Assembly (NCBI GenBank): GCA_021734045.1
Contig: JAIPJR010000045.1
Location: 1-24,389 of the forward strand
DNA length: 24,389 nucleotides
Source of the DNA: Fidelibacterota bacterium
Lineage (GTDB): Bacteria > Fidelibacterota > UBA8477
Reading direction: 5' to 3'
In this document: positions 1-24,091 of the stretch, in pieces
Position numbering within the stretch: position 1 is the first letter of the stretch
How the letters are laid out: every line of letters starts with the position of its first letter
Notes under the pieces: model-generated
Seen by the model: the letters and a program-made list of their open reading frames with translations, nothing else
Told to the model about the DNA's origin: nothing
Databases searched by the model: none
Made by a program: the position numbers and the translations under genes

Positions 1-81
1 CATTAGTTTGTCACATCCAAACATGCTGATTACCATTAAAATTACGAAAAGCACGGGAAAAAATCTCTTTCGTTGAAACAC
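1..81 (-). CDS. Partial lipoprotein, N-terminal 27 codons only
   Basis: The gene runs off the left edge of the window, so only the signal peptide is visible. It starts with GTG at 81, preceded by a GGAG Shine-Dalgarno (complement of 89-92) 7 bases away. The translated start is a basic patch (QRKR), a hydrophobic stretch of about 13 residues, then M-F-G-C with Cys at residue 23, which fits a lipobox. It begins 38 bases after the malG stop on the same strand, so it is probably the third gene of the transporter operon. Its mature function cannot be read. By position it could be a further glucan-binding or hydrolytic lipoprotein, but that is a guess. Confidence 0.6.
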   Translation of the reverse strand, partial: MFQRKRFFPVLFVILMVISMFGCDKLM

Positions 82-119
82 AGGTATTCTCCAAATCGAA
101 GGTTTATTGAGCAAGATTC

Positions 120-953
120 TTACCCTTTCACCGACCCCAGGGTCAATCCGCCTACCAGATAGCGGGTGAGAAATAGAAACAGGGCCACCGCCGGGATTGA
201 AACCACCAGTGCACTGGCAGCATACAGTCCCCATTCGGTGGTCATATTGGCCTGGAAATTTTTAATCCCCACTGGCAGGGTGAACATATTCTCATACTGC
301 AACACCTGCGCAGCGACAATGTACTCTGTCCAGGCCGCCATGAATGAAAACAGCGCCGTGATAACCAGAGCGGGGGTGGCTATGGGCAAAATCACCTTGT
401 AGAACGCACCAAACCGGCTGGCTCCGTCAATCCGTGCCGCTTCTTCCAGGCTATAGGGAATCGTGTCATAGTATCCCTTCATCTGCCAGATGCAAAAAGG
501 CAGTGCCGTGGACGTGTAAATCACGATAAGACCCAGGTAGGTATTGATGAGGTGAAGTTTGGCCAGCATGATGAATAGCGGCAAAAGCAGCATGGTGGCC
601 GGGAACATCTGCGTTACCAGCAGGCTCATGAGACTGGCTTCCCGGCCGGGAAATTTATAGCGTGAAATGGCATAGCCGGCAGTGGAGGCTAATGCCACCC
701 CGGTGAGCATCACCACCCCGGTGACCAAGATAGAATTCCACATCCAGCGCAGGAATGAATGTTCAGTGAATAATTTGATGTAATTGTCAAAGGTCCAATT
801 CTCCGGAATAATGGCCAGACTTTCATTGAGCAGATTATCACCAGGACGGATGGAGATGGAAATGACCCTTAGGATGGGGTAAATAGACCAGGTTAAAAAC
901 ACGATCAGAATCGCATAAATCACGATGTACTGGAGGACACTGGTTCGTTTCAT
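120..953 (-). CDS. malG: MalG-like sugar ABC transporter permease
   Basis: A 277-residue inner-membrane permease of the binding-protein-dependent sugar importer family (MalG/CUT1 type), which would form the translocation pore with the MalF half. About six membrane segments are visible. The cytoplasmic EAA loop that docks the ATPase is clear at about residues 160-180 (EEAARIDGASRFGAFYKVILP). The reading frame is open upstream to 1187, but ATG at 953 is chosen because a perfect AGGAGG (complement of 963-968) lies 9 bases before it and because the extension overlaps the upstream gene and looks unnatural. The stop is TAA. It follows the MalE-MalF fusion by 13 bases. No MalK-type ATPase lies in the window, so the ATPase must be encoded elsewhere or shared. 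The sugar specificity is inferred from the amylase neighbours. Confidence 0.9.
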   Translation of the reverse strand: MKRTSVLQYIVIYAILIVFLTWSIYPILRVISISIRPGDNLLNESLAIIPENWTFDNYIKLFTEHSFLRWMWNSILVTGVVMLTGVALASTAGYAISRYKFPGREASLMSLLVTQMFPATMLLLPLFIMLAKLHLINTYLGLIVIYTSTALPFCIWQMKGYYDTIPYSLEEAARIDGASRFGAFYKVILPIATPALVITALFSFMAAWTEYIVAAQVLQYENMFTLPVGIKNFQANMTTEWGLYAASALVVSIPAVALFLFLTRYLVGGLTLGSVKG

Positions 954-962
954 AAGCAATAC

Positions 963-968
963 CCTCCT
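963..968 (-). promoter_or_regulatory. Shine-Dalgarno of malG overlapping the upstream stop codon
   Basis: AGGAGG on the minus strand, 9 bases before the malG ATG at 953. It overlaps the TAG stop (967-969) of the MalE-MalF fusion gene. This arrangement suggests coupled translation of the two permease halves and settles the malG start. Confidence 0.8.
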
Positions 969-3276
969 AATACGCCGTGCGGGTCGCCCCGCTGCGCTGC
1001 ATGAATTTAATGGAAAAGGCTGCCAGCATGAGGAAAATGACAAAACTGAATGCCGCCGCGTAACCATAACGATACAGATTGAATGCCGCCCGGTACACAA
1101 AGCTGACCAAAATATGGGTCTGATCACCCGGTTGCCCACCATTTGAAACCAGCCATACCACATTGATGTTGTTGAATGTCCACACAATTCCCAATGTAAT
1201 GGCTGGTAGCATCACCGGTTTTAACAATGGCAGGGTAATTTTTTTAAACTGCTGCCAACTGCTGGCGCCATCAATCTCCGCTGCTTCGTAGAGCTCTCGG
1301 GGAATGGCCTGCAATCCCCCCAGCGCAATGACCATCATAAACGGAATGCCCAGCCAGATATTGGTGATAATGGTGGCTAAAAAGGCATTGGTGGCGTCGG
1401 TGAGCCAGGGAATCGGCTGCATTCCAAACAGGTTTCGCAAAATCAGGTTAATGGCGCCGGAATCGGTGTTGAACATCCCCCGCCAGGTAAGGGCTGTGAT
1501 ATAACTGGGCACCGCCCAGGGCAATACCAGAATTACCCGCATGATACCCTTCCCCCACAGCGGCCGATTCAATAGCAGAGCCAGGAATACACCTACGGTC
1601 ACGTGCACCACCACGTTGGATAGCGTCCACACGATCGTGCGCCAGAGAAAATGATAAAAATTGGGATCGGTAAAGACTTTTCCGTATTGGCCAAACCCGA
1701 TTATCCGCCAGGAATTCACCGTGGTCATACCCATGTTGGAGAGGGAGATGACCAAATTATAGCCGAATGGAAATACCACCACCGCAAAAAGGAAAACGGC
1801 TGCCGGTAGAACCATCCACACGGCGAAACGGGCATTGCGGGTGGTACCACTTTCCGGATTTTTGAGCAAGGGTTTGATGAAACCGCTCACCAGTTTGTAC
1901 AGCGCCCAAATCGCCAGCAGAATACCCAGCGCGTACACCAGCGCCACCATAATGCTGTTCCAGATCGTGGACTCTTCCTGTCCTTCATAAAGTTCGCCGA
2001 TTTTCTGGACCGCTAATTTCTGCATGTACGCGGCACCCTCTTCCGGGGTCATATTACCGCCCAGAACATTCTGATAAGCGGGTCGCATGGCATCCCAGAT
2101 GGCGCGCATTTCGGGTCCAATGGGCATTGCCCGTCCCAATTCCACCTGGCGAATTGAGGTGGAAATAACCGGGTCATCCTGCACTTCAGGTAAATTTCTC
2201 ACGGAAAACCGGGTGGGAATAATGGACGTCCGTCGGGCGAAGTCCAATTGGGCAGCCGGGCTGGTGAGGAATTCGATGAGCTTCACCGACTCCGCCAATA
2301 GCGTATCATCCAGGTAAGGGTTCAGCCAGTACCCCTTGGTAGCTACCATGGGCGCCGGGTATTTACCGGTCACAGCATTCACCGGCAGAACCGCCAGGCC
2401 AAATTCCACATCCGGGGATTCCATGTATTTAGCCCAGGCCCAGGCACCATTGATCAACATCGCAGCTCGCCCGGTATTGAATTTTGAATCGGCGATATCA
2501 TAATCACACTCACGGGGGATGATTTTGTATTTGTCCCGCAAATCCACCACAAACTGGAACGCTTTTACCGCCGCGTCATTGTCCAGGGTCGGATTGCCAT
2601 CCGCATCCATAATCCAGCCACCGAAGGAACTGTAAAATGGTACGAAGAAAAAAGGCTCGGTGTAATTCCACACCAAACCGTACTGATCGGTTACGCCGTC
2701 ACCGTCAATGTCCAGGGTCAGTTTTTGCCCGAATTCAATTAATTCATCCAGCGTTTGGGGCGCCCGGTCCAGCCCAACCTCCTGAAACAATCGCTTGTTC
2801 CACACCAAGGCCAGATGATTACCCAGTTCGTCCCCGATTTGATACAGATGACCGTTGTAATTCGTCAGGCCGTTGGGATCAAAGTCGCTGAGAAAAGTGG
2901 CGTCGAATAGGGTTTCAAGGGGTTTGATAATCTGCATCTCGTCCAGCGCGCCGGTAAAATCACTGGGGCCGTATAAAATCTCGGGACCACCGCCGGTGAA
3001 TGCTGCCGCCGCCTGGTAGCCCATCCGCAGCTCTTCATTCTCCTTGTAGAGTAATTGAATCTCCACACCAGGATTTTCCTGCTCGTACTGATTGACGAGA
3101 TCCTGGAGTACGGCGCGACTGGGAGCAGGACGCTGGTGCCAGAGATGGATGGTTAAGGGCTCCTCCGCCGCCAGGGTAACGGAAAAATATCCCAGTATGC
3201 CAAGGGCAAGAATCCGGCGAATCAGTCCGCACCACATTGGTCTTAATCCCCTGCCATTCGCCGCGCATTTTTTCAT
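967..3276 (-). CDS. MalE-MalF fusion: solute-binding protein joined to sugar ABC permease
   Basis: A single 769-residue protein. A basic signal peptide (about residues 1-37, ending near TLAAEE) is followed by an extracellular solute-binding domain of the maltose/CUT1 type (about 38-432). A connecting membrane helix follows (about 438-465), then a MalF-like permease with about six helices (about 483-769) and the EAA loop EAAEIDGASSWQQFKKITLP at about 664-683. The topology is coherent: the binding domain is periplasmic and the extra helix returns the chain to the cytoplasm. ATG at 3276 has GGGGA upstream (complement of 3282-3290 region). The frame stays open through both domains with no stop. 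These two proteins are normally separate in the maltose family, so the fusion is unusual. The likely substrates, given the neighbours, are malto-oligosaccharides. Confidence 0.9.
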   Translation of the reverse strand: MKKCAANGRGLRPMWCGLIRRILALGILGYFSVTLAAEEPLTIHLWHQRPAPSRAVLQDLVNQYEQENPGVEIQLLYKENEELRMGYQAAAAFTGGGPEILYGPSDFTGALDEMQIIKPLETLFDATFLSDFDPNGLTNYNGHLYQIGDELGNHLALVWNKRLFQEVGLDRAPQTLDELIEFGQKLTLDIDGDGVTDQYGLVWNYTEPFFFVPFYSSFGGWIMDADGNPTLDNDAAVKAFQFVVDLRDKYKIIPRECDYDIADSKFNTGRAAMLINGAWAWAKYMESPDVEFGLAVLPVNAVTGKYPAPMVATKGYWLNPYLDDTLLAESVKLIEFLTSPAAQLDFARRTSIIPTRFSVRNLPEVQDDPVISTSIRQVELGRAMPIGPEMRAIWDAMRPAYQNVLGGNMTPEEGAAYMQKLAVQKIGELYEGQEESTIWNSIMVALVYALGILLAIWALYKLVSGFIKPLLKNPESGTTRNARFAVWMVLPAAVFLFAVVVFPFGYNLVISLSNMGMTTVNSWRIIGFGQYGKVFTDPNFYHFLWRTIVWTLSNVVVHVTVGVFLALLLNRPLWGKGIMRVILVLPWAVPSYITALTWRGMFNTDSGAINLILRNLFGMQPIPWLTDATNAFLATIITNIWLGIPFMMVIALGGLQAIPRELYEAAEIDGASSWQQFKKITLPLLKPVMLPAITLGIVWTFNNINVVWLVSNGGQPGDQTHILVSFVYRAAFNLYRYGYAAAFSFVIFLMLAAFSIKFMQRSGATRTAY

Positions 3277-3638: not shown

Positions 3639-6600
3639 ATGACTACCCTAAAAACCAATTTAAGCTTGTTTTTCGCCATCTGTTTGATGGGTCTGAATGC
3701 CGGACTTTATGGACAAACCGTGCCCATCACATTTCACTTCGATCCGCCAGTGGACAATTTTGAGGTGGTGCGGTTGGTGGGCAGCTTCAATGGCTGGAAC
3801 AATGCGGATAATAATCTTGCAATGACAGATACCGATGGTGACGGCGTTTTCATCCTAACCACACCACTGGCAATGGGCGTTGACCACAATTATAAGTTCG
3901 TTCTGGACGCAGATTGGGGTCAATCATTCACCGATCCGGATAATCCCCGGGTGAATGTGGCCGACAACAACAACTCCATCATCACCGTTACCGACCCCAA
4001 TATCACCTACCTCCTGCCCCGGGGCATTACCAGCGCCGGAGACCAGTACGTGGATATCTCCGACACAGGCGAACCGTTGCGGGCAGTGATTGATTTTACC
4101 GCGGGAAATCCCATCGATTTGTCGGAGATGGTATTGACCTATGATGATGTAACCATTGATAACCCGGGGCAATATTTTGACGAAGCCACCCATGAATTGT
4201 ATTACGAGTTACCTGAAACGCCCACAATCGATGAACACACCATCTCGCTCACCGTCTCCTCGGCTATTGATACGATTACCAAAACAGCCACCTACCGCTA
4301 CGATCCCAGTATGGTGGTTTACCATGTCCCCACCGATTTTTATTTCGATACCCACAACGCCCGGAATCCCTTCTTCACGGTGGATATCAATGCCGTTTCG
4401 GTCATGGGTCCCTTCAACAACTGGAACAATCAATTCAATCCTATGCAGGATATGAATTTTGACGGCGTGTGGGAAACCACTGTCCCGCTGGAACCCCACG
4501 GGTGGCAATACAAATTCCAGGTGAACGGGAGTCTGTGGGTGAACGACAATGACAACCCGCATTTCAATCCCGATAATGCGGATAACAACTGGATCGAAGT
4601 GATCGTGGATTCCCTGCCTGGCATAAAGTTACTAAGCCCCATGGAGAATCAGGTTTTTGTGAATGACGAGTCGCTGCCCGAATCCATTAACCTGGAGGCT
4701 CTCTTGCGTCCGGGCGTGCTTGGCGAGGGTGTGAATGAAGCTTCCCTTGAAGTGACACTGAATGGAAATGTGCTTACCCATGCTTATGACGCGGAAACCG
4801 GTCAGGTCAGTGCCATTGCGCTGAACATGGAATCCGGCGTAAATACCCTGACGGTTAGCTTTGCCAATGGTTTGGGAGAAAGCGTTTCCCAGACTTACAC
4901 TGTGGGCTTGTTCGATCCCAATACCGGCTTTCACGCTGTGGACGGTATTGCTGATGTTCAATACACGCCACCGTCAGGCATGACAGTGGACGAATTGGAC
5001 ATCCGTGGGTTCCACCTGGCAGCTATAGGCACGAATCATGACTCGCTTTTGTTCACGATTAACATGGCAGAAATCGGTGACCGCACACGCCTGGGACTTC
5101 TGATTACCAATCCGGTTTCTGATCTGGTTGAAGATTCACTGGGATTGGATTTGGAGCTGCCGGACTGGGATACGGAAGGCATTTTCACCATTCTGGCTGA
5201 TCCCAACAGTTCATTATTCAACGCGGAGCGGGAAAATCGCTTTCAGGAGCGGCGCGATCCGGTGACTTATGGCAATTACAGCGTGAGTACGGATGCGGCG
5301 GCATTAAGTGAAAACACCTTCGAGTTTGTTCTGCCGCTGGCCTATCTGGATAGTTTATTGGGCGGGTGGAATCAGCAGCGTACCTTCATGCTCTTCTCCT
5401 ACGCGGTGAGCGCGGACGGAAGCGGTCAAGGTACTGAAATTACCGCAGAGCAGGGTGGAATCGATGGTCCTGAAGAGGCGGATATTTATGATGCCGCATT
5501 TATCCGCAGCAGTTTCTGGCAAAACCGGATTTTATCCAACTTCATCCCAGCCGGATCTGCCCATGGTCCGCGCCTGACGGCTCTGGATGGTATCGGGCGA
5601 GGACAGGCAATTCTCACCGCCACGGATGTTTCCGACAGTCTCGCCACATTCGGACCGGTCATCACCTTCCTCACACCGGCGGTCAGCTATTGGTACAATT
5701 CTGTGGACATCGCCTGGACTGTGAGTGATAGTCTCACCACCAGTGCCACGGTTATTTTTAATGGCGCCGAACATGAGGTGCTTGCTGAAAATGGCGTATT
5801 CACCTACCCGGCCTCACTGGAAGAGGGCGAAAATACCGTTGTGGTACGTGCAGTGGGAAGTAATGGATTTTTAACCACCTCCACCCCGCAGTTCTATACC
5901 TATGTGGTAAACCATAACCCCAGTGTGTTCATCACCGCCGAGACCAATGGCCGCGTCATGACACTCACGGCAAACGGTTTTTCGCCGGACTCCCTCAATC
6001 TCAGTTACCTATGGTGGGGTGATCCGGATAATCCGGCACCTATCAGTATTTTACCCTTCAGCTACACCTCCATCACCCGGACCATTCCCGACGCCAATGG
6101 GGAGTATTTTTTCAATGTCCGTGCTAAGGATAGTGAAAACCGTACCGCTGAAGCGCGCTTCCTCATCACGGCAACCGACAGTGGTATCACTGCCGCTGGT
6201 ATAAATGATCACGCTGCCTGGATTGACACGGCGGTTTTTTATGAAATCTATCCCCGCTCCTTTTCAGAGCAGGGTGGATTTTCTGGTATTCAGGCGCGGA
6301 TTCCTGATATGGTTGATCTGGGAATTAATGCGGTGTGGCTCATGCCCATTTTTGACGGACCCACAACGCACGGATATGAAATTACGGATTATTACGCATT
6401 TGAGCAGGATTATGGTAACGCGGCTGAGTTTGAAAATTTAGTGACTGAACTTCACGACAATGGCATTCGCATCATTCTGGATTTTGTGGTGAACCATACC
6501 GCCATTGGACATCGGTTTATGCAGAATGTTTTCGAATACCACGAATATTCACCCTGGGCGGAGTGGTACATTTGGGAGGGTCAGCCGGGGAATTCAAGTT

Positions 6601-7832
6601 ATGAGTACTTCTTCGACTGGGCTTCACTGCCCAATCTCAACCATGTGAATCCTGATGTAAGGAAGTACTTCATTGATGTGGCCAAATACTGGGTGGAAAA
6701 TTTTGATATTGACGGCTACCGCTGTGATGTGGCCTGGGGTGTAGAAGAGCGCACGCCCCTGTTCTGGCCCGAATGGCGCCAAGCACTGAAAAATATCAAG
6801 CCGGAAGTGTTTCTGGAGGCGGAAGCCTCTTCCGCTCAAACGGTTTATTACGACCAGCGGTTTGACGCCGCCAATGACTGGGAACTGCGCAATCGTATTT
6901 TAGAAGCGATCCAGGGCACCAACACCATCGGCGCCATGGATGCTGAGTTGCGCCGGGACTATCCCAGCCACGCTCGACCGTTCCGATTTCTGGAAAATCA
7001 TGACGAATCCCGTATGGCAGCCGCGTATGACACGGAGCGCTCCAAGCTGGCACACACCATTATTTTCATGGCCAATGGCGTCCCGCTCATCTACTCCGGT
7101 GGTGAAGTTGGGGAACTCACTGGCCGGGGTCTGATTGACTGGAGCGATCCTGGTGGTGTTCGTCCTTACTTCAAGCGATTGGTTCAGATTCGGAAATCAT
7201 TTTTGAGCAATGACCTGGCAATGAGCCGCATTTCCAACAGTGATATGTCTGATATCTACAGCTTTGCCTCCAGGCATGATGGAAATACGCTGGTAACGGT
7301 GGCGAATTTCCGCTCCACTGATGCCACGGACCTCACTGTAGATTTGTCGGGATTTGCATTTGAAGGTGACGGCCCCTATTACCTCTCTGACCTCATGAGT
7401 GGTGAAGTCATCACCGTTCCCGGTGATGCAGCGGATGCGGTCAACATCCCGCTGAATGGTTATGAAGCACGGGTTTTCTACTACAACGCTCATATTGTGA
7501 ATATTGCCGAAATTCCAGATGAGGGTCATGGGATTAAGGAATTTGAACTCCGGCAGAATTACCCCAATCCATTCAATCCGGCAACCACCATTCGCTATAG
7601 CCTGCCAACACCTGCAGAGGTTACCCTCACTATTTATGATATTACCGGTCGGGAAGTAACTCGCCTGGTGCGTGCATCACAGGGGAGCGGTAACTATCAA
7701 ATTATGTGGAACGGTCAGGACCGGTATCAGAACCAGGTAGCATCCGGTATTTATTTTTACCGGTTTATGGCTCGTGACGCGGCAGGCAGCATCGTAGCAC
7801 AGGAAACCCGACGAATGTTATTGGTGAAGTAA
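3639..7832 (+). CDS. Secreted multi-domain GH13 amylase with two CBM48-like modules and T9SS sorting domain
   Basis: This 1397-residue protein should hydrolyse alpha-1,4-glucans outside the cell. ATG at 3639 follows GGGAG and opens a clear signal peptide ending near LYGQ. In order: CBM48/E-set module (about 22-115, GSFNGWN), Ig-like segment (135-225), second CBM48-like module (230-325, GPFNNWN), Ig-like (328-425), DOMON/glucodextranase-C-like region (430-670), two more Ig/PKD-like domains (671-850), GH13 barrel (857-1285) and a C-terminal T9SS type A domain (1300-1397, RQNYPNPFNPATT). The GH13 motifs are intact: DFVVNHT near 947-953, nucleophile D1030 in GYRCDVAWG, acid/base E1062 in LEAEAS, and D1122 in ENHDESR. 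The DOMON-like assignment is less certain than the rest. It diverges from the transporter operon, so co-induction is likely. The exact GH13 subfamily (amylase, neopullulanase) is not resolved. Confidence 0.92.
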   Translation: MTTLKTNLSLFFAICLMGLNAGLYGQTVPITFHFDPPVDNFEVVRLVGSFNGWNNADNNLAMTDTDGDGVFILTTPLAMGVDHNYKFVLDADWGQSFTDPDNPRVNVADNNNSIITVTDPNITYLLPRGITSAGDQYVDISDTGEPLRAVIDFTAGNPIDLSEMVLTYDDVTIDNPGQYFDEATHELYYELPETPTIDEHTISLTVSSAIDTITKTATYRYDPSMVVYHVPTDFYFDTHNARNPFFTVDINAVSVMGPFNNWNNQFNPMQDMNFDGVWETTVPLEPHGWQYKFQVNGSLWVNDNDNPHFNPDNADNNWIEVIVDSLPGIKLLSPMENQVFVNDESLPESINLEALLRPGVLGEGVNEASLEVTLNGNVLTHAYDAETGQVSAIALNMESGVNTLTVSFANGLGESVSQTYTVGLFDPNTGFHAVDGIADVQYTPPSGMTVDELDIRGFHLAAIGTNHDSLLFTINMAEIGDRTRLGLLITNPVSDLVEDSLGLDLELPDWDTEGIFTILADPNSSLFNAERENRFQERRDPVTYGNYSVSTDAAALSENTFEFVLPLAYLDSLLGGWNQQRTFMLFSYAVSADGSGQGTEITAEQGGIDGPEEADIYDAAFIRSSFWQNRILSNFIPAGSAHGPRLTALDGIGRGQAILTATDVSDSLATFGPVITFLTPAVSYWYNSVDIAWTVSDSLTTSATVIFNGAEHEVLAENGVFTYPASLEEGENTVVVRAVGSNGFLTTSTPQFYTYVVNHNPSVFITAETNGRVMTLTANGFSPDSLNLSYLWWGDPDNPAPISILPFSYTSITRTIPDANGEYFFNVRAKDSENRTAEARFLITATDSGITAAGINDHAAWIDTAVFYEIYPRSFSEQGGFSGIQARIPDMVDLGINAVWLMPIFDGPTTHGYEITDYYAFEQDYGNAAEFENLVTELHDNGIRIILDFVVNHTAIGHRFMQNVFEYHEYSPWAEWYIWEGQPGNSSYEYFFDWASLPNLNHVNPDVRKYFIDVAKYWVENFDIDGYRCDVAWGVEERTPLFWPEWRQALKNIKPEVFLEAEASSAQTVYYDQRFDAANDWELRNRILEAIQGTNTIGAMDAELRRDYPSHARPFRFLENHDESRMAAAYDTERSKLAHTIIFMANGVPLIYSGGEVGELTGRGLIDWSDPGGVRPYFKRLVQIRKSFLSNDLAMSRISNSDMSDIYSFASRHDGNTLVTVANFRSTDATDLTVDLSGFAFEGDGPYYLSDLMSGEVITVPGDAADAVNIPLNGYEARVFYYNAHIVNIAEIPDEGHGIKEFELRQNYPNPFNPATTIRYSLPTPAEVTLTIYDITGREVTRLVRASQGSGNYQIMWNGQDRYQNQVASGIYFYRFMARDAAGSIVAQETRRMLLVK

Positions 7833-7939: not shown

Positions 7940-9205
7940 TTATTCGGGTGCGATTCCGGTCATTTCCACCGGCCAGAAAAGGGTGAGCGCTTCATCCAGG
8001 TGAGCGCGCCAGGCGCCCCACGAATGGCCCTCGTACCAAATTTTATTCACATACGCCACATTCCGATCATCCAACAGCTCTACCAGGGATTGGGTGGCCT
8101 GATAAATGGCGGGCTCGTAGGTACCGCTGTCCAGGTAAATTTTTGTCTGAATTTCAATTGCCGATGCATACTGATTGACGATATCGCCAAACCAGATTGC
8201 GGGTGAGAAAGCGCCGCAATTTCCAAACACATCCGGGCGTTGAATACTAAATAGTAGTGAGGTTAAGCCGCCCAGTGAGACACCAATAGTCGCGCGATGC
8301 GCCGGACCTTCTTTCACCCGATACCGCTCTTCAATCCAGGGCACCAATTCATTGCAGAACATGTCCAAGTACGCATAACTGTAGGAATAATCCTGATTTC
8401 GATCGTTAGGGTCAACGAAAACACCGATGATGGGTTGTATTTCCTGGTAATGAATTAAATAATCAAGTGTGTTTTGGGCATAAGCTAAATCAAGCCATTC
8501 ACCGCCGTCGTGAAAAAAGGCAACCGGAAAGGAATCACCAGAAGCCGTGTAACCGGGCGGCAAATACATCCGAATATCATGGGTCGCACCATTTGAATCT
8601 GTAAAATTGTCCTGGGAAACCGAACCGTGGGGAATCTCGTACGATTGAATTTCCGGTGGCTGGATATAATGGGACATGGCCAGTTCAGAATTAGGACCGA
8701 AACCACCGGCGCACGTATTGGGATTTAGCGGGTCCAAAATCCACTGACCGCCATCCAGAACAAATTTGTAATCCAACCGGGCGGTCGGTTCGAAAGTTTC
8801 CATCCGATAATACAAATTCGTACCCGAAAGTTGTGTAAAGTCATGATTGGCCGGATCCCAGCCATTGAAATCACCGGCCACAGCCACATTTGAAACAGAT
8901 GAGGAGCGATACAGAAAAAACGCCCGCGTGGAATCTTCCACATAGGGAATCCCTGTGGTGGCCTGCGCCCAGGTCATGAAAGAATCCACCAATGCTGATT
9001 TTTCAGCGGGGGTTTCTGCCGTATAAACCTGGGTGACAAAATCGTTGAAGGAGAGAAAACCCACCCGCTGCTGCTGTCCCTTTACCAGATCATCCACTTT
9101 ATCATCCGATGGTTGTGAGAAACCGGAAAATGTTGGCAACTGACATGAAGTCATGAATAGGCTGATCAACGCTGAGGTGAAAATTTTCATTGTCCTGGAA
9201 GGCAT
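7940..9205 (-). CDS. CBM48-containing esterase lipoprotein (Fes/CE1-like alpha/beta hydrolase)
   Basis: A 421-residue predicted lipoprotein. Residues 1-21 form a lipoprotein signal ending L-F-M-T-S-C (Cys21). A helical stretch follows, then a CBM48/AMPK-type glycogen-binding-like module (about 90-177, AGDFNGWDP, YKFVLDGGQW) and an esterase domain (about 210-412) like enterochelin esterase or carbohydrate esterase family 1. The nucleophile elbow is GVSLGG with Ser310. Asp359 (YLDSGTYE) and His394 (YEGHSW) fit the rest of the triad. ATG at 9205 is chosen because GGAG lies 6 bases upstream; ATG at 9190 is also possible, and the TTG at 9289 is rejected. The family removes ester groups, but the substrate here is unknown. 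The CBM and the neighbours point to an acyl or aryl ester on, or packed with, an alpha-glucan. It lies just beyond a strong terminator of the upstream operon. Confidence 0.85.
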   Translation of the reverse strand: MPSRTMKIFTSALISLFMTSCQLPTFSGFSQPSDDKVDDLVKGQQQRVGFLSFNDFVTQVYTAETPAEKSALVDSFMTWAQATTGIPYVEDSTRAFFLYRSSSVSNVAVAGDFNGWDPANHDFTQLSGTNLYYRMETFEPTARLDYKFVLDGGQWILDPLNPNTCAGGFGPNSELAMSHYIQPPEIQSYEIPHGSVSQDNFTDSNGATHDIRMYLPPGYTASGDSFPVAFFHDGGEWLDLAYAQNTLDYLIHYQEIQPIIGVFVDPNDRNQDYSYSYAYLDMFCNELVPWIEERYRVKEGPAHRATIGVSLGGLTSLLFSIQRPDVFGNCGAFSPAIWFGDIVNQYASAIEIQTKIYLDSGTYEPAIYQATQSLVELLDDRNVAYVNKIWYEGHSWGAWRAHLDEALTLFWPVEMTGIAPE

Positions 9206-9211
9206 CATCGT

Positions 9212-9215
9212 CTCC
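9212..9215 (-). promoter_or_regulatory. Shine-Dalgarno deciding the esterase start
   Basis: GGAG on the minus strand, 6 bases before the ATG at 9205. The alternative ATG at 9190 has AGGA only 2 bases away, which is too close to work well. Confidence 0.5.
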
Positions 9216-9239
9216 GGAGGATAAGTTAATTTGGCCTGG

Positions 9240-9272
9240 AAAAAAAGAGGGTGGTTACCGTAACCACCCTCT
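9240..9272 (-). terminator. Strong rho-independent terminator after the CBM protein gene
   Basis: On the minus strand a perfect 12-bp stem (AGAGGGTGGTTA with its complement TAACCACCCTCT) and 3-base loop is followed directly by a run of seven T. It sits 43 bases after the stop of the three-module CBM gene and about 35 bases before the esterase start, so it ends or attenuates the receptor operon. Confidence 0.92.
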
Positions 9273-9314
9273 CTTATTTCAATAATCAATGTCGTCTGTT
9301 AAGACGCACAAAAA

Positions 9315-15830: not shown

Positions 15831-18800
15831 TCAATTGCTCCCCAGGGAAAATCCGATCGTAACACGCCGGGGTTCACCATACCAAGTGGGATGGGTGAAG
15901 TAAGTATCAAGTGAATTAATCGCTTCAATGGCATTATTGTCCACTGCCCGGTCCTGAGCCAATGTATATTCTGCCGTACCTGTATCGCCATAAACCCCAT
16001 ATTCATTCAGGATGTCCAGGAGATTGTCCGCTTTCACATAAAAACTGAAGTTTTGGCCCATCAGTGTAAAATTATGATAATATTTCATGTCCAGTAAAAT
16101 CGTGCCGGGTTTGGTTCCTGAATTGGGTATGGCGGTCCCTAAATTCCCCTGCTCATCACTGGGTGTGTATGGCAACCCACTTCCCAGTTGACCGCTCAGG
16201 CTCACGCCCCAGTTAGCCAGTTCTCCAACCGTAGTGGTGAAGTTCAAACTGTGGCGCTGATCCCAATCCAGCCGGAGAAAATGAACCTCCGGTTCCGAGC
16301 CACCCTGCAGCGCACGGAAAGCGGCCTGCGGATCAGAGGTGTTCCCTTCGGCTATCTGAAAGGTATAATCAATATTGGCGCTCCACATATCGCTGTGGCG
16401 TTTTTCCAACGCCAGCGTCACACCGCGGGCATTGGCATAATCCAGATTGATATACTGAACATACTTGCGTTTATCGTAGGTCTCCCAAACCTTATTAGCA
16501 CTCACCAATTGCCGGATATCCCGGTAGTACACACTCAGGTCAATTCCAATGTCATCGGTTAATTGCTGCTGCAGACCGATCTCATAACTGACGGTCTTTT
16601 GAGGCTCAAGGTCAGCGTTGCCCACCAGACTGTTGATACCGGTGCCACTGGCTAAGCGATATTCCGGATTATTGAACATGTCTTCGTAATTGGGAATTTG
16701 AAAAAAGTGACCGTAGGAGATGTGAATGACGCCCTGATCAGAAATGGGGTAACCAATGCCTATACGCGGACTGAACTGTGCTTTGGGTTTGGCGTCTCTA
16801 TACCAAAATGCTTCCCGTTCTTCGAATGTGAATTCGTTATCCGGTATCTTTTCAGATGAATCGTACTTACCATCACCATCCAGATCGGAATAGCTTTCAC
16901 CAGCGTCACGGAAACCGTTTTCATTGTCATCAACAAAGGGCTCCGGATCATCGATGTGCCCGTCACCATCTTTATCCCGGTACCGGTGATCCGGCCGAAT
17001 GGGGCTGTAAATATCCGGATCCCGCATGTCAGTCGGAACATGGAAATTGGAATTAAAATAATCGTACCGCAACCCAGCGTTAAGTATCAGGCTGGAAAAC
17101 TCCAGTTTGGTCTGGGCATAGGCGGATAACTCCTGAGGTTCTACCTGAAGGATATACCCGATAGTATCACCGGTCTGTACATCAAAGCCTACCAATCGTC
17201 GATAAATATTATTCAAACGTGCCTGAACACCCGTTTTCAATTCGGCTACCTGGGTCAGTTGATTGGTGTAATCACCTTTGATAACCTGCGAAATAGTCCG
17301 GCGATTAAACCAGCTATTCTGAATCCCACCCGTGATGAAACTATAGAGCTGCTGGGTGCCCAGGACATTAATCAAATCAAGTGTCCCGTCTCCATCCAGG
17401 TCTGCGTACTTTTTGGTATCCTCAGGATTTTTATACTTGTATTCCAACCACTCATATTCTACCCGCGAATAACCCAGTGAATAAAAGCTGGACTGAGACA
17501 ACTGATGATTCACGCCGACCGTATAACTCCCACCAGTTTTATAACGATCCTGGAGTCCATCCGGATTTAATTGAAAGAACTCATCCCAATTTTGCTGCCA
17601 GGAGTTGTCGCGGAGAATATTGAAGTTTACAGATAATGTGGGCGTCACGCGGTAGGTGAATTTGGTGTGGAAAGAGGTCTTGGAATAAGGATTCATGGAA
17701 ACATAGGCGGAATCACCGGTCCCGAGACGATAGCCACTGTTTTTAAATGTTCGCAATGAATCCAATTCCAGCGGTGCGTAGCCAATCTCACCGGTATTCA
17801 GATTCAAACCCTTCACCCACCAACGGCCATCCACTCCCAGGCCAGAACGTGGATCAATGGTAGAGTAAAAGGTATCATCAATCTCGAATTGGCGAACCCC
17901 CTGGAGATGACCGTCAACGGCAAAATAGCGGGCTGTGGTGAAAAAGGAGAATTTATCCCTGATGATGGGACCTGACAAACTCGCCTGCAGGTTGCGTTGG
18001 GCGGTAGGTTTCAGGTCATCAATATTCCGGAAAATCCCCGTATGCGTAGAAACATGGTCACCCATATAACCTGAAAGGTTGTAGCTCCACTTATCGCTAC
18101 CGTCTTTCGTCACAATATTCACGACACCGGACATGGCCTGACCATATTCAGCGTTAAATGCACCGGTAATGAACTGCAATTCCTGAATGGATGTATTCTC
18201 AATATCAACGGCCATATTCCCATTGTAGGGATCGGTGACCGGAATGCCGTCCACCATATAAAGGGTCTCACCGGAACGGCCGCCACGAACATGACCGGCA
18301 ACCATTCCTGCCTGCATATCCAGTACTTCATTAAAAGTCTCAACCGGCATAGCTTTTATCTGGTCAGCAGAAACATGTTTTGCGCTGGAGGTCAGATCTT
18401 TTTCCACCATGGGACGCTCGGCGGTGACGGTCACCACCTCTCCGGATTCCAGGATTTCGCTGACCATCTCGATATTCACTTCGGTTGTCAGATCCACCGA
18501 GACCAAAACATCACTAACCCGGGTACTTTTATACCCAATCATGCTGGCAATCACAGAATATTTGCCCGGTGGTACACCGGTAATGGTATAGCTCCCATCA
18601 ATATTGGTCGCTGCACCCAAATACCCGCTGCTTTCAACCACCACGTTACAGCCAATCAGGGGTTCCCCTGTTTCAATGTCACTCACCAGGCCGGCAATTT
18701 TCCCAGTAGTTCCAGCCTGAAGATTTGATATTGAAATCCCCAGCAGCAGAGCCAACCAGGTTCCGAGTCCTGCATGGCGCATTCGTCGCACTTTTCGCAG

Positions 18801-18833
18801 TGGATTTTTACACATAGCCAAGAGCAACTCCAT
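15831..18833 (-). CDS. TonB-dependent receptor with carboxypeptidase-regulatory-like N-terminal domain
   Basis: A 1000-residue outer membrane receptor for energy-dependent uptake, probably of glucan oligosaccharides. The signal peptide ends near residue 40 (LQAG). A CarboxypepD_reg-like domain (about 44-125, ATNIDGSYTITGVPPGKY) comes next, then a TonB-box-like stretch (EVVTVTAERP, about 132-141), the plug (150-245, VDGIPVTDPYNG and AEYGQAMSGVVNIVTK) and a long barrel ending TIGFSLGSN. An insertion of Ca-binding-type loops (DKDGDGHIDD, DLDGDGKYD) lies at about 618-660, presumably in an outer loop. The start is uncertain: ATG at 18833 lacks a Shine-Dalgarno, while ATG at 18815 (GGAG 12 bases upstream) and 18782 also give good signal peptides. 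It is the first gene of the operon. The architecture is SusC-like, but the substrate is inferred from the neighbours. Confidence 0.9.
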   Translation of the reverse strand: MELLLAMCKNPLRKVRRMRHAGLGTWLALLLGISISNLQAGTTGKIAGLVSDIETGEPLIGCNVVVESSGYLGAATNIDGSYTITGVPPGKYSVIASMIGYKSTRVSDVLVSVDLTTEVNIEMVSEILESGEVVTVTAERPMVEKDLTSSAKHVSADQIKAMPVETFNEVLDMQAGMVAGHVRGGRSGETLYMVDGIPVTDPYNGNMAVDIENTSIQELQFITGAFNAEYGQAMSGVVNIVTKDGSDKWSYNLSGYMGDHVSTHTGIFRNIDDLKPTAQRNLQASLSGPIIRDKFSFFTTARYFAVDGHLQGVRQFEIDDTFYSTIDPRSGLGVDGRWWVKGLNLNTGEIGYAPLELDSLRTFKNSGYRLGTGDSAYVSMNPYSKTSFHTKFTYRVTPTLSVNFNILRDNSWQQNWDEFFQLNPDGLQDRYKTGGSYTVGVNHQLSQSSFYSLGYSRVEYEWLEYKYKNPEDTKKYADLDGDGTLDLINVLGTQQLYSFITGGIQNSWFNRRTISQVIKGDYTNQLTQVAELKTGVQARLNNIYRRLVGFDVQTGDTIGYILQVEPQELSAYAQTKLEFSSLILNAGLRYDYFNSNFHVPTDMRDPDIYSPIRPDHRYRDKDGDGHIDDPEPFVDDNENGFRDAGESYSDLDGDGKYDSSEKIPDNEFTFEEREAFWYRDAKPKAQFSPRIGIGYPISDQGVIHISYGHFFQIPNYEDMFNNPEYRLASGTGINSLVGNADLEPQKTVSYEIGLQQQLTDDIGIDLSVYYRDIRQLVSANKVWETYDKRKYVQYINLDYANARGVTLALEKRHSDMWSANIDYTFQIAEGNTSDPQAAFRALQGGSEPEVHFLRLDWDQRHSLNFTTTVGELANWGVSLSGQLGSGLPYTPSDEQGNLGTAIPNSGTKPGTILLDMKYYHNFTLMGQNFSFYVKADNLLDILNEYGVYGDTGTAEYTLAQDRAVDNNAIEAINSLDTYFTHPTWYGEPRRVTIGFSLGSN

Positions 18834-18835
18834 TA

Positions 18836-18911: not shown

Positions 18912-18913
18912 TT

Positions 18914-18953
18914 GCGAAGAAATTAAATCTTCGCTTTACTAATTTCAAGCGAA
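18914..18953. promoter_or_regulatory. Overlapping, mutually exclusive hairpins upstream of the TonB receptor
   Basis: GCGAAGA (18914-18920) can pair with TCTTCGC (18928-18934). The overlapping TTCGCTT (18930-18936) can pair instead with AAGCGAA (18947-18953). A third pair, GAAATTA (18919-18925) with TAATTTC (18940-18946), lies across both. Only one set can form at a time. No T run follows, so this is not a simple terminator. Confidence 0.45.
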
Positions 18954-19065
18954 ATCTGCTGCCTGGCTGATACGCTGATGCTGACGCGAAGTAGGACCTC
19001 ACACCCTGCTGCCTGCTTTGCCAAAAAATCACGCCCCGGAACCCTATCCCACGTATATTTTCCCC

Positions 19066-20784
19066 ATGCTGATCGTGACGCATCGATTATTAAGACGACT
19101 TCTGCCAATGTTCGGCCTTGTGATGTGGATCAGTAACTGTTCGCAATCCGAGCCCCAATCACCCGAAATGCTGGCCAGCGTGGGAACTCGCACCATCACC
19201 ATTTCAGATTTTCAACGCACCTACCTGCCAATTCTGCTTTACACAAATGAAAGGGATAACGACGAGACACGTGAACGGGTCCTGAACGATCTGCTGGGGA
19301 TAAAAATTCTCGCACAATCCGCCGAATCCATCGCACTGGATACTATTTCAGATATTGAGAAGTGGGTAGAACCCGTTCGACGAAATGCCCTGCTGCGCAA
19401 AATGTACACCCATGAAATTTCAGAGAAGATTCCCGCACCTTCTGAGGCAGCAATACGCCAAGGCTTCCGGCGAGCAAACGAAACCCGGCTTGTACGCCAT
19501 TTATTTGTACAAGACCAGGCCAGAGCAGAAAGGTTGTACAACGCCATTCAGAATGGTGAAACGGATTTTTATGTCGCAGCAGAACAGGTTTTCCAAGATT
19601 CCCTACTACGTGCCAACGGTGGTGAATTAGGCTGGATTCGATTCGGTGAGCTGGATGCGGTTTTAGAGGATACCATCTATGCCTTAGAACCTGGTCAAAT
19701 CTCCCGGCCGACCCGGAGTTCTTACGGCTGGCATTTGGTGATGGTGGACGGGATTCAGCGGAATAAAATGCTTACCGAAAGTGATTACTTGCTACTCAAG
19801 CCAAGGATTAAACGCATCATCGAGAAACGGCAAACCTTTCTGCGCTCACGAGAATTCATTAATGATTTCATGCAGCAAATAAACCTCTCTTTTAATGAGG
19901 AAATCGCACCGCAAGTAATCCGGATATTGGCTGCTCGAATCGTCGCATTTGGGGATAACGCGGCTAATGACGAACTCACCAACATCAGCCAGCGGGAAAT
20001 TGGTGTCCTTCAAAACGATTTAACCCCCTACCTGGAAGAAGAATTGTTGCGCTACCAGAATGAAATTTGGACAGTGGCTGATCTGGTGGCACGAATGCCT
20101 TATATCAACACGCGTCTGATGTTCCAAAACCTGCAAACCGCGATTGCCTATCTGGTGCGGGATGAGGTGCTCCTCAACCAGGCGCATGAACGGGGGTTTG
20201 GCGATGATCCGGACGTCCAGGCTGAAGTTCAAGATCGCCGGGATCAGGTTCTGGCCCAACTTTTTATACAAGCACGGTGGGATTCTCTCCACATCACACC
20301 CGGCACGTTGCGGAAATACTACCAGGACACTTGGCCCGTACGCTACGCAGGTCCAGATAGCCTATATATGGAGGGCATACGGTTCACCAGTCGTGAAGCA
20401 GCTGACGAAGCGTTACATCACTTGGATTCCGGCATGTCCTTCAGCCGGCTGGTCACGGATATTAAAGCAGGAAAGTTTCAGGATTTTGGCTGGCAGGTGC
20501 AATATGCCACCCACTATCCGGTGCTATATAATCAACTTCTACATGAAACCCTATTTACAGTCAAAGGACCGATTCATACGCAGGGAGCGTGGTGGCTGGT
20601 TCAGGCTACCTCCCGCCATCGATATCCATTACCATATAAAAATGTGCGACATCAAGTAGAGAGCGATTACCGGGCTGAGCAGTGGCGCATTTTTCGCCTG
20701 AAATTAGTTGACGAAAATCAGAGCAGATATGATGTGACCATTCATTTTGATCGATTACAGTCACTAACAGAATTGGCCCGGTAA
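19066..20784 (+). CDS. Parvulin-type peptidyl-prolyl isomerase lipoprotein (SurA/PrsA-like)
   Basis: A 572-residue predicted periplasmic lipoprotein chaperone. From ATG at 19066 there is a basic, hydrophobic signal ending W-I-S-N-C with Cys25; Asn before the Cys is unusual. A SurA-like N-terminal helical region follows, then a parvulin rotamase domain (about 140-231, VRHLFVQD, GGELGWIRFGELD, SRPTRSSYGWHLVMVDG) and a second, poorer rotamase-like domain (about 430-520, FQDFGWQV, WWLVQATSR). Proteins of this type fold outer membrane barrels and secreted proteins. No clear Shine-Dalgarno is seen, and ATG at 19018 or 19108 could be the start. It diverges from the TonB receptor operon, which suggests help in folding that barrel or the secreted cargo. 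Its stop lies 2 bases from the stop of the converging amylase gene. Confidence 0.83.
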   Translation: MLIVTHRLLRRLLPMFGLVMWISNCSQSEPQSPEMLASVGTRTITISDFQRTYLPILLYTNERDNDETRERVLNDLLGIKILAQSAESIALDTISDIEKWVEPVRRNALLRKMYTHEISEKIPAPSEAAIRQGFRRANETRLVRHLFVQDQARAERLYNAIQNGETDFYVAAEQVFQDSLLRANGGELGWIRFGELDAVLEDTIYALEPGQISRPTRSSYGWHLVMVDGIQRNKMLTESDYLLLKPRIKRIIEKRQTFLRSREFINDFMQQINLSFNEEIAPQVIRILAARIVAFGDNAANDELTNISQREIGVLQNDLTPYLEEELLRYQNEIWTVADLVARMPYINTRLMFQNLQTAIAYLVRDEVLLNQAHERGFGDDPDVQAEVQDRRDQVLAQLFIQARWDSLHITPGTLRKYYQDTWPVRYAGPDSLYMEGIRFTSREAADEALHHLDSGMSFSRLVTDIKAGKFQDFGWQVQYATHYPVLYNQLLHETLFTVKGPIHTQGAWWLVQATSRHRYPLPYKNVRHQVESDYRAEQWRIFRLKLVDENQSRYDVTIHFDRLQSLTELAR

Positions 20785-20786
20785 AC

Positions 20787-22622
20787 TTACCTAATCGTCA
20801 CGAGACTATTCCTGCCACCATAGGGATCGATTTCCGAATCCTGTGCCAATGGATCCGCCACCCATTCCTGACCATACAGAACAAATTTATACCGGTATGT
20901 TCCCCGCCTCAGCGGCACCGTCATGATTAAGGTATCATTACGGGTGATTACCGGGAATTCCCGTGGTTGCCAATTGGTGAAATCACCTGCAATTGCCCAC
21001 TGATTTGCCGTTAAATCGCCTATAAACTTGAATTCATACCGCTGGTAATCACCCGTCAATCGGTCGGTGAAAGTTGCCCATGGGTCCGTTGATTTTAACT
21101 GCACCGTGACAGGCCAGACACCCGCACTGTATGGCTCTATTCTGATACCAATGGCGTCGGAACTCGCGGATATGTCAACACCGCCATAGGTTGGTGCTCC
21201 CCAGGATTGAATCGAATAGCGGGTCGTAGATTTCGGAAGATATAGCGCCTCGGGTGTAGCGGCATTGTTTAGGATGACCAGGAACTGTGTATCTTTATAG
21301 CTACGGAGGTATGCATAAATGCCCCAGTCCTTATAGAGCTCGAAAAATTCACCTCGGGAAAATGCCGGATAGCGCCGGCGAAGCTGGATGAGGTCACGCG
21401 CCTGTTGGTACATCTGCTGTTGGGCTGGTGTGAATTGCGTTGGCATCATGCGCCGGTTCACATAATCCTGAGGTTCGCCCGTCTCAAGATTGGTAAGTGG
21501 TCCACCTTCCAGTCCAATCTCCGTACCATAATACAACACCGGAATCCCGGGCGTGGTTAGCAGGTAGGTCAAGGCCAGATGTAATTTTTCAGCTGCATAA
21601 CTGTCAATTCCCACCGTGAATCGAGCTACATCATGATTATCCACCAGCGTTACCATGGGATGTCCCTGGTATATCCGATCTGATTGCTGCCGGAATCGGG
21701 AGAGGTCGGCCATACTCCCACCCTGGGCAAATGTATTTTTAATGGTATAATAGCCGGGAATATCAAACAGCGCATCAAATCCCAGCTCCAGATAGGGCGC
21801 AACCCGCTCCGGTTCACCCCAGAATACCTCCCCTAACAGGAAAAAATCATTCTCGGTATAGTGATGAACATCAGCATTGAATTTTCGCCAGAAAGGTTTC
21901 TCGATATGTTTCACCGCATCCAGTCGAAAGCCATCCGCTCCAGTGCGATCAATCCAATACTTTGACATGTCAATGAGATATTCGGTGACCTCAGGGTTTT
22001 CCTGATTCAGATCCGGCATCCCGTGCAGGGCGCCACGCTCAATCTGCTCCTGGTCAAACCAATTTTTAATCCGATAAAATGCCCCATTACTGTCGCGATG
22101 AAACCAATCCTGCCGGTCACGATCCGTCACCCAGGGATGGTCCGCTGCTGTTTGGTTGAATACCATATCAAAAATGATTTTAATGCCACGCGCATGTGCC
22201 TTTTCCACCAGTTCAACCAGATCCGCTTCGGTTCCAAAATGCTCATCCACCGCATAAAAATTCACCGGGTGATATCCGTGATAGGGCCACCACCCTACGA
22301 AATCCTTATCGGAATTATCGAAAAAAGGTGTTAACCATAACGCCGTAACACACAGTGAATCCAAATAATCCAATTTCTGAATCATTCCCCGCAGATCGCC
22401 GCCCTGATAGGTTTTCAATGCCCGGGGGTTGGATCCATCGTATACCACATGGCTGGCCGGTTGATTTCCGGCATCGTTTGTGGGGTCACCGTTGTGAAAC
22501 CGGTCGATAAGCGCAAAATAGATGATTTCATCTTGCCAGCCAGTCGCTTCTGGTTCAACCCGGCATCCTATCAAGACTGCAATGAGAAGTGCCAGACTGA
22601 TTAGCCGGCCCCTGAATGTCAT
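20787..22622 (-). CDS. GH13 amylase lipoprotein with C-terminal CBM48-like module
   Basis: A 611-residue lipoprotein (signal to Cys20, lipobox L-I-G-C) carrying a GH13 alpha-amylase-type barrel (about 28-505) and a C-terminal CBM48/AMPK-type module (about 525-611, AGDFTNWQP, YKFVLYGQEW). The catalytic residues are present: nucleophile D235 (GFRLDAVKH), acid/base E265 (LLGEVF) and D331 (LVDNHDVAR). Region I reads FDMVFNQT, with Gln157 where His is usual. It should cut alpha-1,4-linked oligosaccharides at the periplasmic or outer face of a membrane. Its ATG overlaps the glgA stop (ATGA), so it is translationally coupled to glycogen synthase. The barrel resembles cyclomaltodextrinase or maltogenic-type amylases, but the subfamily is not resolved. 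Confidence 0.92.
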   Translation of the reverse strand: MTFRGRLISLALLIAVLIGCRVEPEATGWQDEIIYFALIDRFHNGDPTNDAGNQPASHVVYDGSNPRALKTYQGGDLRGMIQKLDYLDSLCVTALWLTPFFDNSDKDFVGWWPYHGYHPVNFYAVDEHFGTEADLVELVEKAHARGIKIIFDMVFNQTAADHPWVTDRDRQDWFHRDSNGAFYRIKNWFDQEQIERGALHGMPDLNQENPEVTEYLIDMSKYWIDRTGADGFRLDAVKHIEKPFWRKFNADVHHYTENDFFLLGEVFWGEPERVAPYLELGFDALFDIPGYYTIKNTFAQGGSMADLSRFRQQSDRIYQGHPMVTLVDNHDVARFTVGIDSYAAEKLHLALTYLLTTPGIPVLYYGTEIGLEGGPLTNLETGEPQDYVNRRMMPTQFTPAQQQMYQQARDLIQLRRRYPAFSRGEFFELYKDWGIYAYLRSYKDTQFLVILNNAATPEALYLPKSTTRYSIQSWGAPTYGGVDISASSDAIGIRIEPYSAGVWPVTVQLKSTDPWATFTDRLTGDYQRYEFKFIGDLTANQWAIAGDFTNWQPREFPVITRNDTLIMTVPLRRGTYRYKFVLYGQEWVADPLAQDSEIDPYGGRNSLVTIR

Positions 22623-24091
22623 TTCATCAGCTCTTGGTAAATTTCCATATACGCCCGGGCCGAGCGCTCCCAGCTAAAATCCTGCGACATGGCATTGTGC
22701 ATCAAAGTATGCCAGGCTGGTTTGTCCCGGAAAACCTGCAAAGCCTGATTGATGGCCTGTAATAACGCAAACGGAGAGTAGAATTGAAAATTAAAACCGG
22801 TACCGCACGCTCCATTCCAGGCCTGAACCGTATCAGCCAACCCACCCGTTTGACGGACAATTGGAATAGTGCCGTACCGTAAACTGTAAATCTGGTTCAG
22901 CCCACAAGCTTCGTACTTACTGGGCATGAGAAACATATCGGCACCCGCTTCGATCAAGTGAGATAATGCCGCATCATAGCCCTGATGATACGCCACCTTC
23001 TCCGGGTACCGCTCAGCCCATTGACGGAACAAATCCTCGAACCGCGTTTCTCCGGAGCCCAGAATGGTCCACTGCAGCGGCATCGTCATGAGTTCCTCTT
23101 CCAGCGGTATGAGTAACTCAAAGCCCTTCGAATCCACCAATCTAGAAATAATACCGACTAAGGCATGTCCGGGGAGGTCGGGTAAACCGCTCCTGGCCAG
23201 GAGAGCTGCACGATTCGTCTGCTTCCCTGCCGTATTTTCAGCAGAGAAATGCGCCGGAATGAGCGGATCCTGCTCCGGACTCCACACCTGATAATCCACA
23301 CCATTTAATATTCCCTGAAGCGGCATTTTCAAGCTTCGTAATACCCCATCCAGGCCAAAACTAATCTCCGGTGAAGCCAACAGTTCACTTGCGTAACTTG
23401 GGCTTACCGTCGTCACCCGGTCAGCGTGGATAATCCCGCCTTTTAAGAAATTGGTTTGCCCGTGAAATTCCAGCGGCCCGCCGGGATAAAATGCCGCCCA
23501 TCCCAAACCGGTGAGGTTGAGAATATCCGGAGAATAACGCCCCTGATATCCGATATTGTGAATGGTCAGGACCGTTTTGGGTGGATTTTTCACCGCCTCT
23601 GTTTTCAGGTACACTGGTAGCAGGGCAGTATGGTGGTCATTCACGTGGAGGATATGGAAGTGGGTTCGCCGCACCATCGCCAGTATCACTTTTTGGAAGA
23701 AAATGTAGCGTTCGCCATTATCCCAAAAGGGGAACCCGTGTTCGTCCTCATAAATACCGGAACGCGCAAAATATTCCGCTGACTCAACAAACCAAATTGT
23801 AACGCTCCCTACGGCTGCACTCAGGATTTTGAAAGAACGCTCCCGATACTCCCCCAGTGAGACTGTTCCCTGAGCAATAATTTTCAACGAATCGGGCAGA
23901 TCACGGCGATTAATCGAGCCATAAAGTGGGGTGATGACCGTTACTTCGGCACCCAATCCAGTAAGAGCAGCCGGTAAAGCCTGGCTCACATCCGCTAGAC
24001 CGCCAACCTTGGAAAATGGCGCAGACTCAGTCGTACAAAAAAGTATCTGCAAAGATGTTTCCGGTGACTTAGAAGGGGGTTTTCTGGGCAT
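22619..24091 (-). CDS. glgA: Glycogen (starch) synthase, GT5 family
   Basis: A 490-residue cytoplasmic GT5 glycosyltransferase that adds glucose from ADP-glucose to the non-reducing ends of alpha-1,4-glucan. The length is normal for GlgA. The N-terminal ADP-glucose motif K-V-G-G-L is at 28-32, TIHNIGYQG at about 176-184, and the phosphate-contacting R317 and K322 sit in ISRLVDSKG. E394 lies in the C-terminal motif PSKYEACGLNQIYSLRYGTI, where Ala replaces the common Pro of EPCGL. ATG at 24091 is the only good start, although no Shine-Dalgarno is close (GAGGA lies about 18 bases away). It is the first gene of an operon with the GH13 lipoprotein. No glgC (ADP-glucose pyrophosphorylase) is in the window. 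Confidence 0.95.
   Translation of the reverse strand: MPRKPPSKSPETSLQILFCTTESAPFSKVGGLADVSQALPAALTGLGAEVTVITPLYGSINRRDLPDSLKIIAQGTVSLGEYRERSFKILSAAVGSVTIWFVESAEYFARSGIYEDEHGFPFWDNGERYIFFQKVILAMVRRTHFHILHVNDHHTALLPVYLKTEAVKNPPKTVLTIHNIGYQGRYSPDILNLTGLGWAAFYPGGPLEFHGQTNFLKGGIIHADRVTTVSPSYASELLASPEISFGLDGVLRSLKMPLQGILNGVDYQVWSPEQDPLIPAHFSAENTAGKQTNRAALLARSGLPDLPGHALVGIISRLVDSKGFELLIPLEEELMTMPLQWTILGSGETRFEDLFRQWAERYPEKVAYHQGYDAALSHLIEAGADMFLMPSKYEACGLNQIYSLRYGTIPIVRQTGGLADTVQAWNGACGTGFNFQFYSPFALLQAINQALQVFRDKPAWHTLMHNAMSQDFSWERSARAYMEIYQELMK

Follow-up and report, generated by a model that had tools for sequence, protein, structure and literature searches.

We analysed a stretch of DNA of 24389 bases (the window), which is one entire contig (JAIPJR010000045.1, here C9) of a 2.54-Mb, 92% complete Neomarinimicrobiota genome, so that the sequence directly beyond its ends is unreadable. 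It carries a three-gene unit encoding a TonB-dependent receptor (TonB), a large protein of 1320 residues (BIG) and an outer-membrane barrel of the PorV/PorQ family (PorV). This trio is co-inherited and is reused several times per genome beside different hydrolases, mostly in genomes that lack SusD. The interpretation that we favour, with moderate confidence, is that the window holds an alpha-glucan uptake locus built on this general module, in which BIG would be an extracellular partner of the receptor, delivered by the type IX secretion system (T9SS) and anchored by the barrel. The three genes and the C-terminal domain (CTD) of BIG are:

15831 to 18833, minus strand: TonB-dependent receptor of 1000 residues, with CarboxypepD_reg, plug and barrel domains.
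11867 to 15829, minus strand: BIG, 1320 residues, with a predicted Sec signal, a supersandwich-like N-terminal domain with inserts, FN3 domains, C-terminal beta domains and a putative T9SS CTD.
11870 to 12199, minus strand: CTD of BIG (residues ~1211-1320), assigned to the PorZ/PorU type by fold and profile comparison.
10853 to 11860, minus strand: outer-membrane barrel of the PorV/PorQ family, 335 residues, a dedicated paralogue (NF033709, 188 bits).

A scan of public genomes with a six-sequence BIG alignment returned at least 584 stretches, at least 537 of them encoding a relative, and the best 80 loci were analysed. These come from at least eight lineages of the Fibrobacteres-Chlorobi-Bacteroidetes (FCB) group, namely Neomarinimicrobiota, Ignavibacteria/Melioribacteraceae, KSB1, Calditrichota, Cloacimonadota, WOR-3/Stahlbacteria, Fermentibacteria and Gemmatimonadota. 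Among loci with enough flanking sequence to be testable (76 on the upstream side, 65 on the barrel side), a TonB gene lies upstream of BIG in 76/76 and a PorV gene accompanies it in 65/65, bearing out the co-occurrence across FCB genomes that a first-pass annotation of this DNA had proposed as a test. The order is TonB-PorV-BIG in seven loci, with PorV otherwise downstream of BIG, and the median gaps within the trio are 11 and 12 bases. Moreover, the three protein trees are correlated (r = 0.85, 0.81 and 0.75), as expected of a cassette inherited as a unit. Apparent exceptions were rejected: L032, L036 and L091 proved to be gene-calling artefacts, and in L062, L075, L093, L040 and L076 the automated pick was a second, weak BIG match, the trio genes being in fact adjacent.

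The window's own genome contains further full trios at C18, C36, C8 and C39, whose receptors are related to that of the window, and a sixth BIG-like gene at C54, where no trio was called. BIG was detected in 143/149 Neomarinimicrobiota genomes, with all 64 genera represented (121 genomes at E <= 1e-100 and 22 with weaker or partial matches, scoring only the best candidates per genome), as well as in 59/118 genomes of the phylum that contains the genome of L101; among named relatives, the nearest (L025, Candidatus Neomarinimicrobiota) has a BIG that is 94% identical. At L018 (C36), a second TonB gene starts directly behind a complete trio, so trios may occur in tandem, and several relatives have two BIG genes ~9 kb apart. 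At L120 (C59, 1111-6267), TonB and PorV genes flank a small open reading frame that by eye resembles a REP (repetitive extragenic palindrome)-associated transposase, not BIG; this is perhaps a broken trio.

The trio is not confined to one substrate. Genes beside it across the wider loci encode, among others, GH13, CBM20, GH66, GH94, GH2, GH26 and GH130 proteins, a glucoamylase-type enzyme and rhamnosidase-like domains, in agreement with the earlier suggestion that other sugar loci might reuse the same genes with different enzymes, together with LacI regulators, SSF symporters, PpiC isomerases and many T9SS-domain proteins. The C8 trio is unlike a sugar locus, because a T9SS subtilase and an Immune-inhibitor-A-like protein adjoin it downstream. 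Furthermore, two ~1-Mb Neomarinimicrobiota genomes (L116, L117) have a single trio with no adjoining sugar enzyme, one gene away from a purA-like gene; the BIG of both is a distant one, identified in L116 chiefly by its C-terminal part. Given the copy beside T9SS proteases and these ~1-Mb relatives, the trio is a general outer-membrane module, specific neither to alpha-glucans nor to sugars. Thus, the first-pass proposal of an undescribed type of polysaccharide utilisation locus (PUL) stands only in part: a literature search confined to open-licence papers found no description of the trio, and the module itself is broader than a PUL type.

Glycan feeding in Bacteroidetes is explained by SusCD complexes. 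SusD (PF07980) had no match in the whole genome of the window, 92% complete as it is, with a positive control genome, which agrees with the SusD-less system first annotated and speaks against a susD gene just beyond the window. The family was likewise absent from all listed genomes of the window's genus and order, and occurs in 36/149 Neomarinimicrobiota genomes and in 7/39 distinct trio-bearing genomes of the wider set. BIG had no SusD match in sequence comparisons with Pfam, NCBIfam and the PDB, and the receptor was matched by other NCBIfam TonB models and by no SusC/RagA model, its one phmmer match to RagA in the PDB (E 3e-5) being limited to residues 46-246. A strongly diverged SusD can be missed by family models, the genome is incomplete and over thirty genomes of the phylum (the 36 above) do have SusD, and on these grounds a SusD that escapes PF07980 and is encoded elsewhere could serve the receptor of the window, whose locus would then be a Sus variant of the usual kind. 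We regard this as very improbable: the genome gave zero matches with the control working, SusD normally adjoins its SusC and the neighbour here is BIG with its beta-rich model, and the receptor falls outside the SusC/RagA family matches. A 2013 paper gives the names SusC, SusD and SusE to products of a Melioribacter roseus starch operon (PMC3534657); PF07980 had no match in a metagenome-assembled genome labelled M. roseus, and the SusD and SusE labels (Mros0760-0759) therefore deserve a re-check.

BIG matched no known family in Pfam, NCBIfam or a single-sequence PDB comparison, and its structural model (residues 21-1215; predicted local distance difference test (pLDDT) 82.4, pTM 0.69) is beta-rich. 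The first part resembles supersandwich domains, namely that of dextran dextrinase (Z 20.0, root-mean-square deviation (rmsd) 3.1, 256 residues, 7% identity) and those of GH94 phosphorylases (Z 16-18), and the part that follows resembles FN3 domains (Z about 9). Foldseek alone returned mainly FN3 chains, and against viral proteins it returned FN3 and tail-like proteins in long alignments of low TM-score, neither result being informative; the extended fold search covered Foldseek's highest-ranked chains. We consider it unlikely that BIG is itself a SusD, as its model is beta-rich, in contrast to the helical SusD of tetratricopeptide-repeat type, and no SusD was among the listed fold matches. Of the earlier claim that a large secreted protein is present instead of SusD, the absence of SusD and the position of BIG beside the receptor hold; the SusD-like role is what we infer, and the modelled fold looks different.

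Sequence and model give BIG the features of T9SS cargo: a signal-peptide-like N-terminus without a lipobox, a predicted C-terminal beta-sandwich domain of T9SS type, and a genome that encodes the translocon SprA (TIGR04189, 774 bits, in frame). In a model of residues 806-1320 (pLDDT 76.8), the C-terminal end forms a domain for which VIA-align ranked PorZ first (5m11; Z 11.6, rmsd 2.3, 93 residues, 27% identity) and PorU second (6za2; Z 8.5, rmsd 3.1, 89 residues, 21% identity), with other T9SS domains lower. Comparison with ordinary T9SS type A CTDs by hhalign gave 95.9% and E 6.2e-9; TIGR04183 itself had no match in BIG. When the CTD profile was compared with all PDB sequences, PorZ and PorU were at the top (E 0.06-0.08, short of significance) apart from designed repeat proteins; the four highest matches, designed beta-propellers at ~3 bits per repeat, were dismissed as a repeat artefact. 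The junction into the CTD is modelled confidently (mean pLDDT 80-96 per block), whereas cleaved T9SS cargo is described as having a linker without structure (PMC5121618). PorZ of Porphyromonas gingivalis is exported via the T9SS and stays on the cell surface with its CTD intact (PMC5121618), and Reg_prop propeller repeats precede the C-terminal domain in two BIG paralogues, just as propellers precede that of PorZ.

The barrel scores well above the curated cut-off of NF033709 (188 bits against 90) and its gene lies 6 bases from BIG, so the PorV-like barrel first annotated in this operon is upheld. With the specific models, it reaches 97 bits for PorQ and 48 bits for PorV, each under its own cut-off. 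Separate PorV-like (C48) and PorQ-like (C107) genes lie outside the trios, the former (L121, 7277-11539) followed by a relative of a T9SS-dependent, M6-like inactivated metalloprotease. PorQ is known to anchor PorZ, and PorV to anchor PorU, to the surface (PMC5562754), and for cargo with a type B CTD the cognate PorP/SprF barrel serves as shuttle and anchor (PMC9143113, PMC12618676). On the strength of these precedents, of a barrel nearer to PorQ and of the separate PorV-like and PorQ-like genes, we propose that BIG is held by its own barrel. As in PorU-PorV and PorZ-PorQ, a T9SS-type protein with a retained CTD would then be bound by a PorV/PorQ-family barrel; here, in contrast, a TonB receptor gene accompanies the pair, which occurs several times per genome and separately from the other PorV-like and PorQ-like genes. 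With type B cargo it shares a cargo gene adjoining its own FadL-family barrel, and it differs in its type A-like CTD, in a barrel of the PorV/PorQ and not the PorP/SprF family, and in the TonB receptor of the unit.

These links to secretion raise the question of whether the receptor serves export instead, in the manner of Oar of Myxococcus xanthus, which is required for secretion of the protease PopC (PMC6434023), by helping to export or assemble BIG or the adjoining T9SS cargo. Besides that precedent, the N-terminal CarboxypepD_reg domain of the receptor and the frequent T9SS cargo beside the trio speak for such a role. However, the genome encodes SprA and has PorV-like and PorQ-like genes outside the trios, BIG has a T9SS domain and a barrel of its own, and the glycan hydrolases and sugar importers that adjoin the trio are what import predicts, leaving an export role improbable.

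The remaining features of the window supply the enzymes and the inner-membrane steps:

120 to 959, minus strand: MalG-like permease (domain and family matches).
967 to 3276, minus strand: MalE-MalF fusion (solute-binding protein and permease, single EAA motif at residue 664).
3639 to 7832, plus strand: GH13 amylase with a T9SS sorting domain and X25/CBM48-type modules, 1397 residues from its likely start.
7940 to 9289, minus strand: CE1/esterase-D-like enzyme, putative lipoprotein (PF00756, 3.8e-29), kept in the locus of relatives.
9238 to 9272, minus strand: strong intrinsic terminator-like hairpin (12-bp stem and T-run) after the binder gene.
9315 to 10820, minus strand: CBM20 starch-binding protein with a T9SS type A sorting domain (CBM_20 8e-10, Por_Secre_tail 3e-7, TIGR04183 over cut-off).
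19018 to 20784, plus strand: PpiC/SurA-type peptidyl-prolyl isomerase.
20787 to 22622, minus strand: GH13 enzyme with lipobox LIGC and a C-terminal AMPK1_CBM-type module.
22619 to 24091, minus strand: glgA glycogen synthase, overlapping the GH13 gene by 4 bases.

The trio thus shares the minus strand with glgA, the GH13 lipoprotein, the binder, the esterase, MalE-MalF and MalG, and the isomerase and the T9SS amylase are on the plus strand. Because the core gaps are short (1, 6 and 32 bases) and the hairpin stands behind the binder gene, TonB, BIG, PorV and the binder probably form one transcription unit.

Combining these elements, and as fold and profile comparisons suggest, we envisage BIG being exported by Sec and then by the T9SS, keeping its PorZ/PorU-like CTD, and binding non-covalently through it to its own PorQ/V-like barrel, which would replace the lipid anchor of SusD. 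The anchored BIG, with its supersandwich and FN3 domains, would sit over the TonB receptor as an extracellular partner, possibly contacting or capping it, and capture maltodextrins that the T9SS amylase cuts and the CBM20 binder holds. The receptor would then import the maltodextrins under TonB force, the lipoprotein GH13 would trim them, and the MalEF-MalG importer would move the sugars through the inner membrane, served by an ATPase whose gene lies elsewhere.

Several observations weigh against this reading. The supersandwich match (Z 20, 256 residues, 7% identity) is evidence of a shared fold and not of sugar binding, the sequence matches of the CTD profile to PorZ and PorU are not significant, and the correlated trees can be explained by physical linkage alone. 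Sugar binding by BIG is also not a necessity, to judge from trios that adjoin proteases or stand by themselves in ~1-Mb genomes. The TonB-PorV-BIG order of seven loci, which puts the barrel between the receptor and BIG, favours the most serious competitor: BIG would reach the surface by the T9SS as a binding or adhesion protein, merely co-regulated with the receptor and making no contact with it, and the receptor would work lidless like many TonB receptors; FN3 and Ig-like domains are indeed typical of adhesins. We nevertheless judge such an adhesin unlikely, since the strict pairing (in all testable loci, in paralogues and in the single-trio ~1-Mb genomes) exceeds what co-regulation of a substrate binder needs, and at this locus that role is already filled by the CBM20 protein.

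On our favoured reading, with BIG as the receptor's anchored partner, BIG would act in SusD's place. The locus resembles the Sus/SusCD PULs of Bacteroidota in combining a TonB receptor and a dedicated extracellular partner (as proposed here) with a surface amylase, a starch binder and hydrolases, and glycan hydrolases and binders (GH13 twice and CBM20) do share the receptor's locus. It differs in having no SusD, a receptor outside the SusC/RagA family matches, a partner of T9SS type that is no lipoprotein and has a barrel of its own, and an ATP-binding cassette importer within the locus. It works like a SusCD locus, yet it is not a member, as it contains neither SusD nor a SusC/RagA-family receptor. 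The three-gene set, recurrent in deep relatives of Bacteroidetes that are usually SusD-less, may be an alternative build of surface nutrient-import machines, and there is a fair chance that it constitutes a distinct class of import complex. If so, it would account for the import of large substrates in deep phyla of the FCB group that mostly have no SusD, Neomarinimicrobiota among them, would offer a function for the additional PorV/PorQ paralogues of these genomes, and would unite nutrient import by TonB with protein secretion by the T9SS in a single machine. The trio is also a simple genomic marker by which uptake loci can be found and classed by their adjoining enzymes.

The wider gene set is conserved as well. 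In two other genera of the order (L118, L119) the genes are collinear on one strand, TonB-BIG-PorV-CBM20-esterase-MalEF-MalG-GH13, from which the window differs by an inverted amylase, so the objection that the set might lack conservation fails. The single MalE-MalF frame (967-3276), correctly recognised as a fused permease in the first pass, is found in the genus, in the order (~70% identity) and in families f14, f15 and f26 (47-51%), and is split elsewhere; the importer resembles MalEFGK2 by MalE, MalF and MalG homology and departs from it in this fusion and in the lack of a malK or other ATPase gene on the contig. Sorting domains on both the amylase, whose start is probably at 3639 downstream of a ribosome-binding-like site, and the binder agree with T9SS export of the two proteins. 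The idea that a T9SS amylase replaces the lipoprotein SusG is only half sustained: such an amylase is present, but the second GH13 (20787-22622) has a lipobox and may itself be a lipoprotein amylase of the SusG kind. By contrast, glgA, which had been counted as part of the system, was found near the trio in none of the 80 related loci and is incidental to the locus. For the PpiC-type isomerase (19018-20784, plus strand), which the earlier reading did not mention, phmmer detected 29 similar open reading frames among the 80 related loci, with E < 1e-15 in 21 loci; this suggests a chaperone for the assembly of these large outer-membrane proteins.

Among minor features, no operator common to the transcription units was found in a search for one, Rfam and tRNA scans of the window gave no matches, and a promoter scan gave 39 sites against 28 expected. 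At the contig end (24300-24389), short GGGGCAGT-type repeats resemble the edge of a mobile element, and the contig may break there for this reason.

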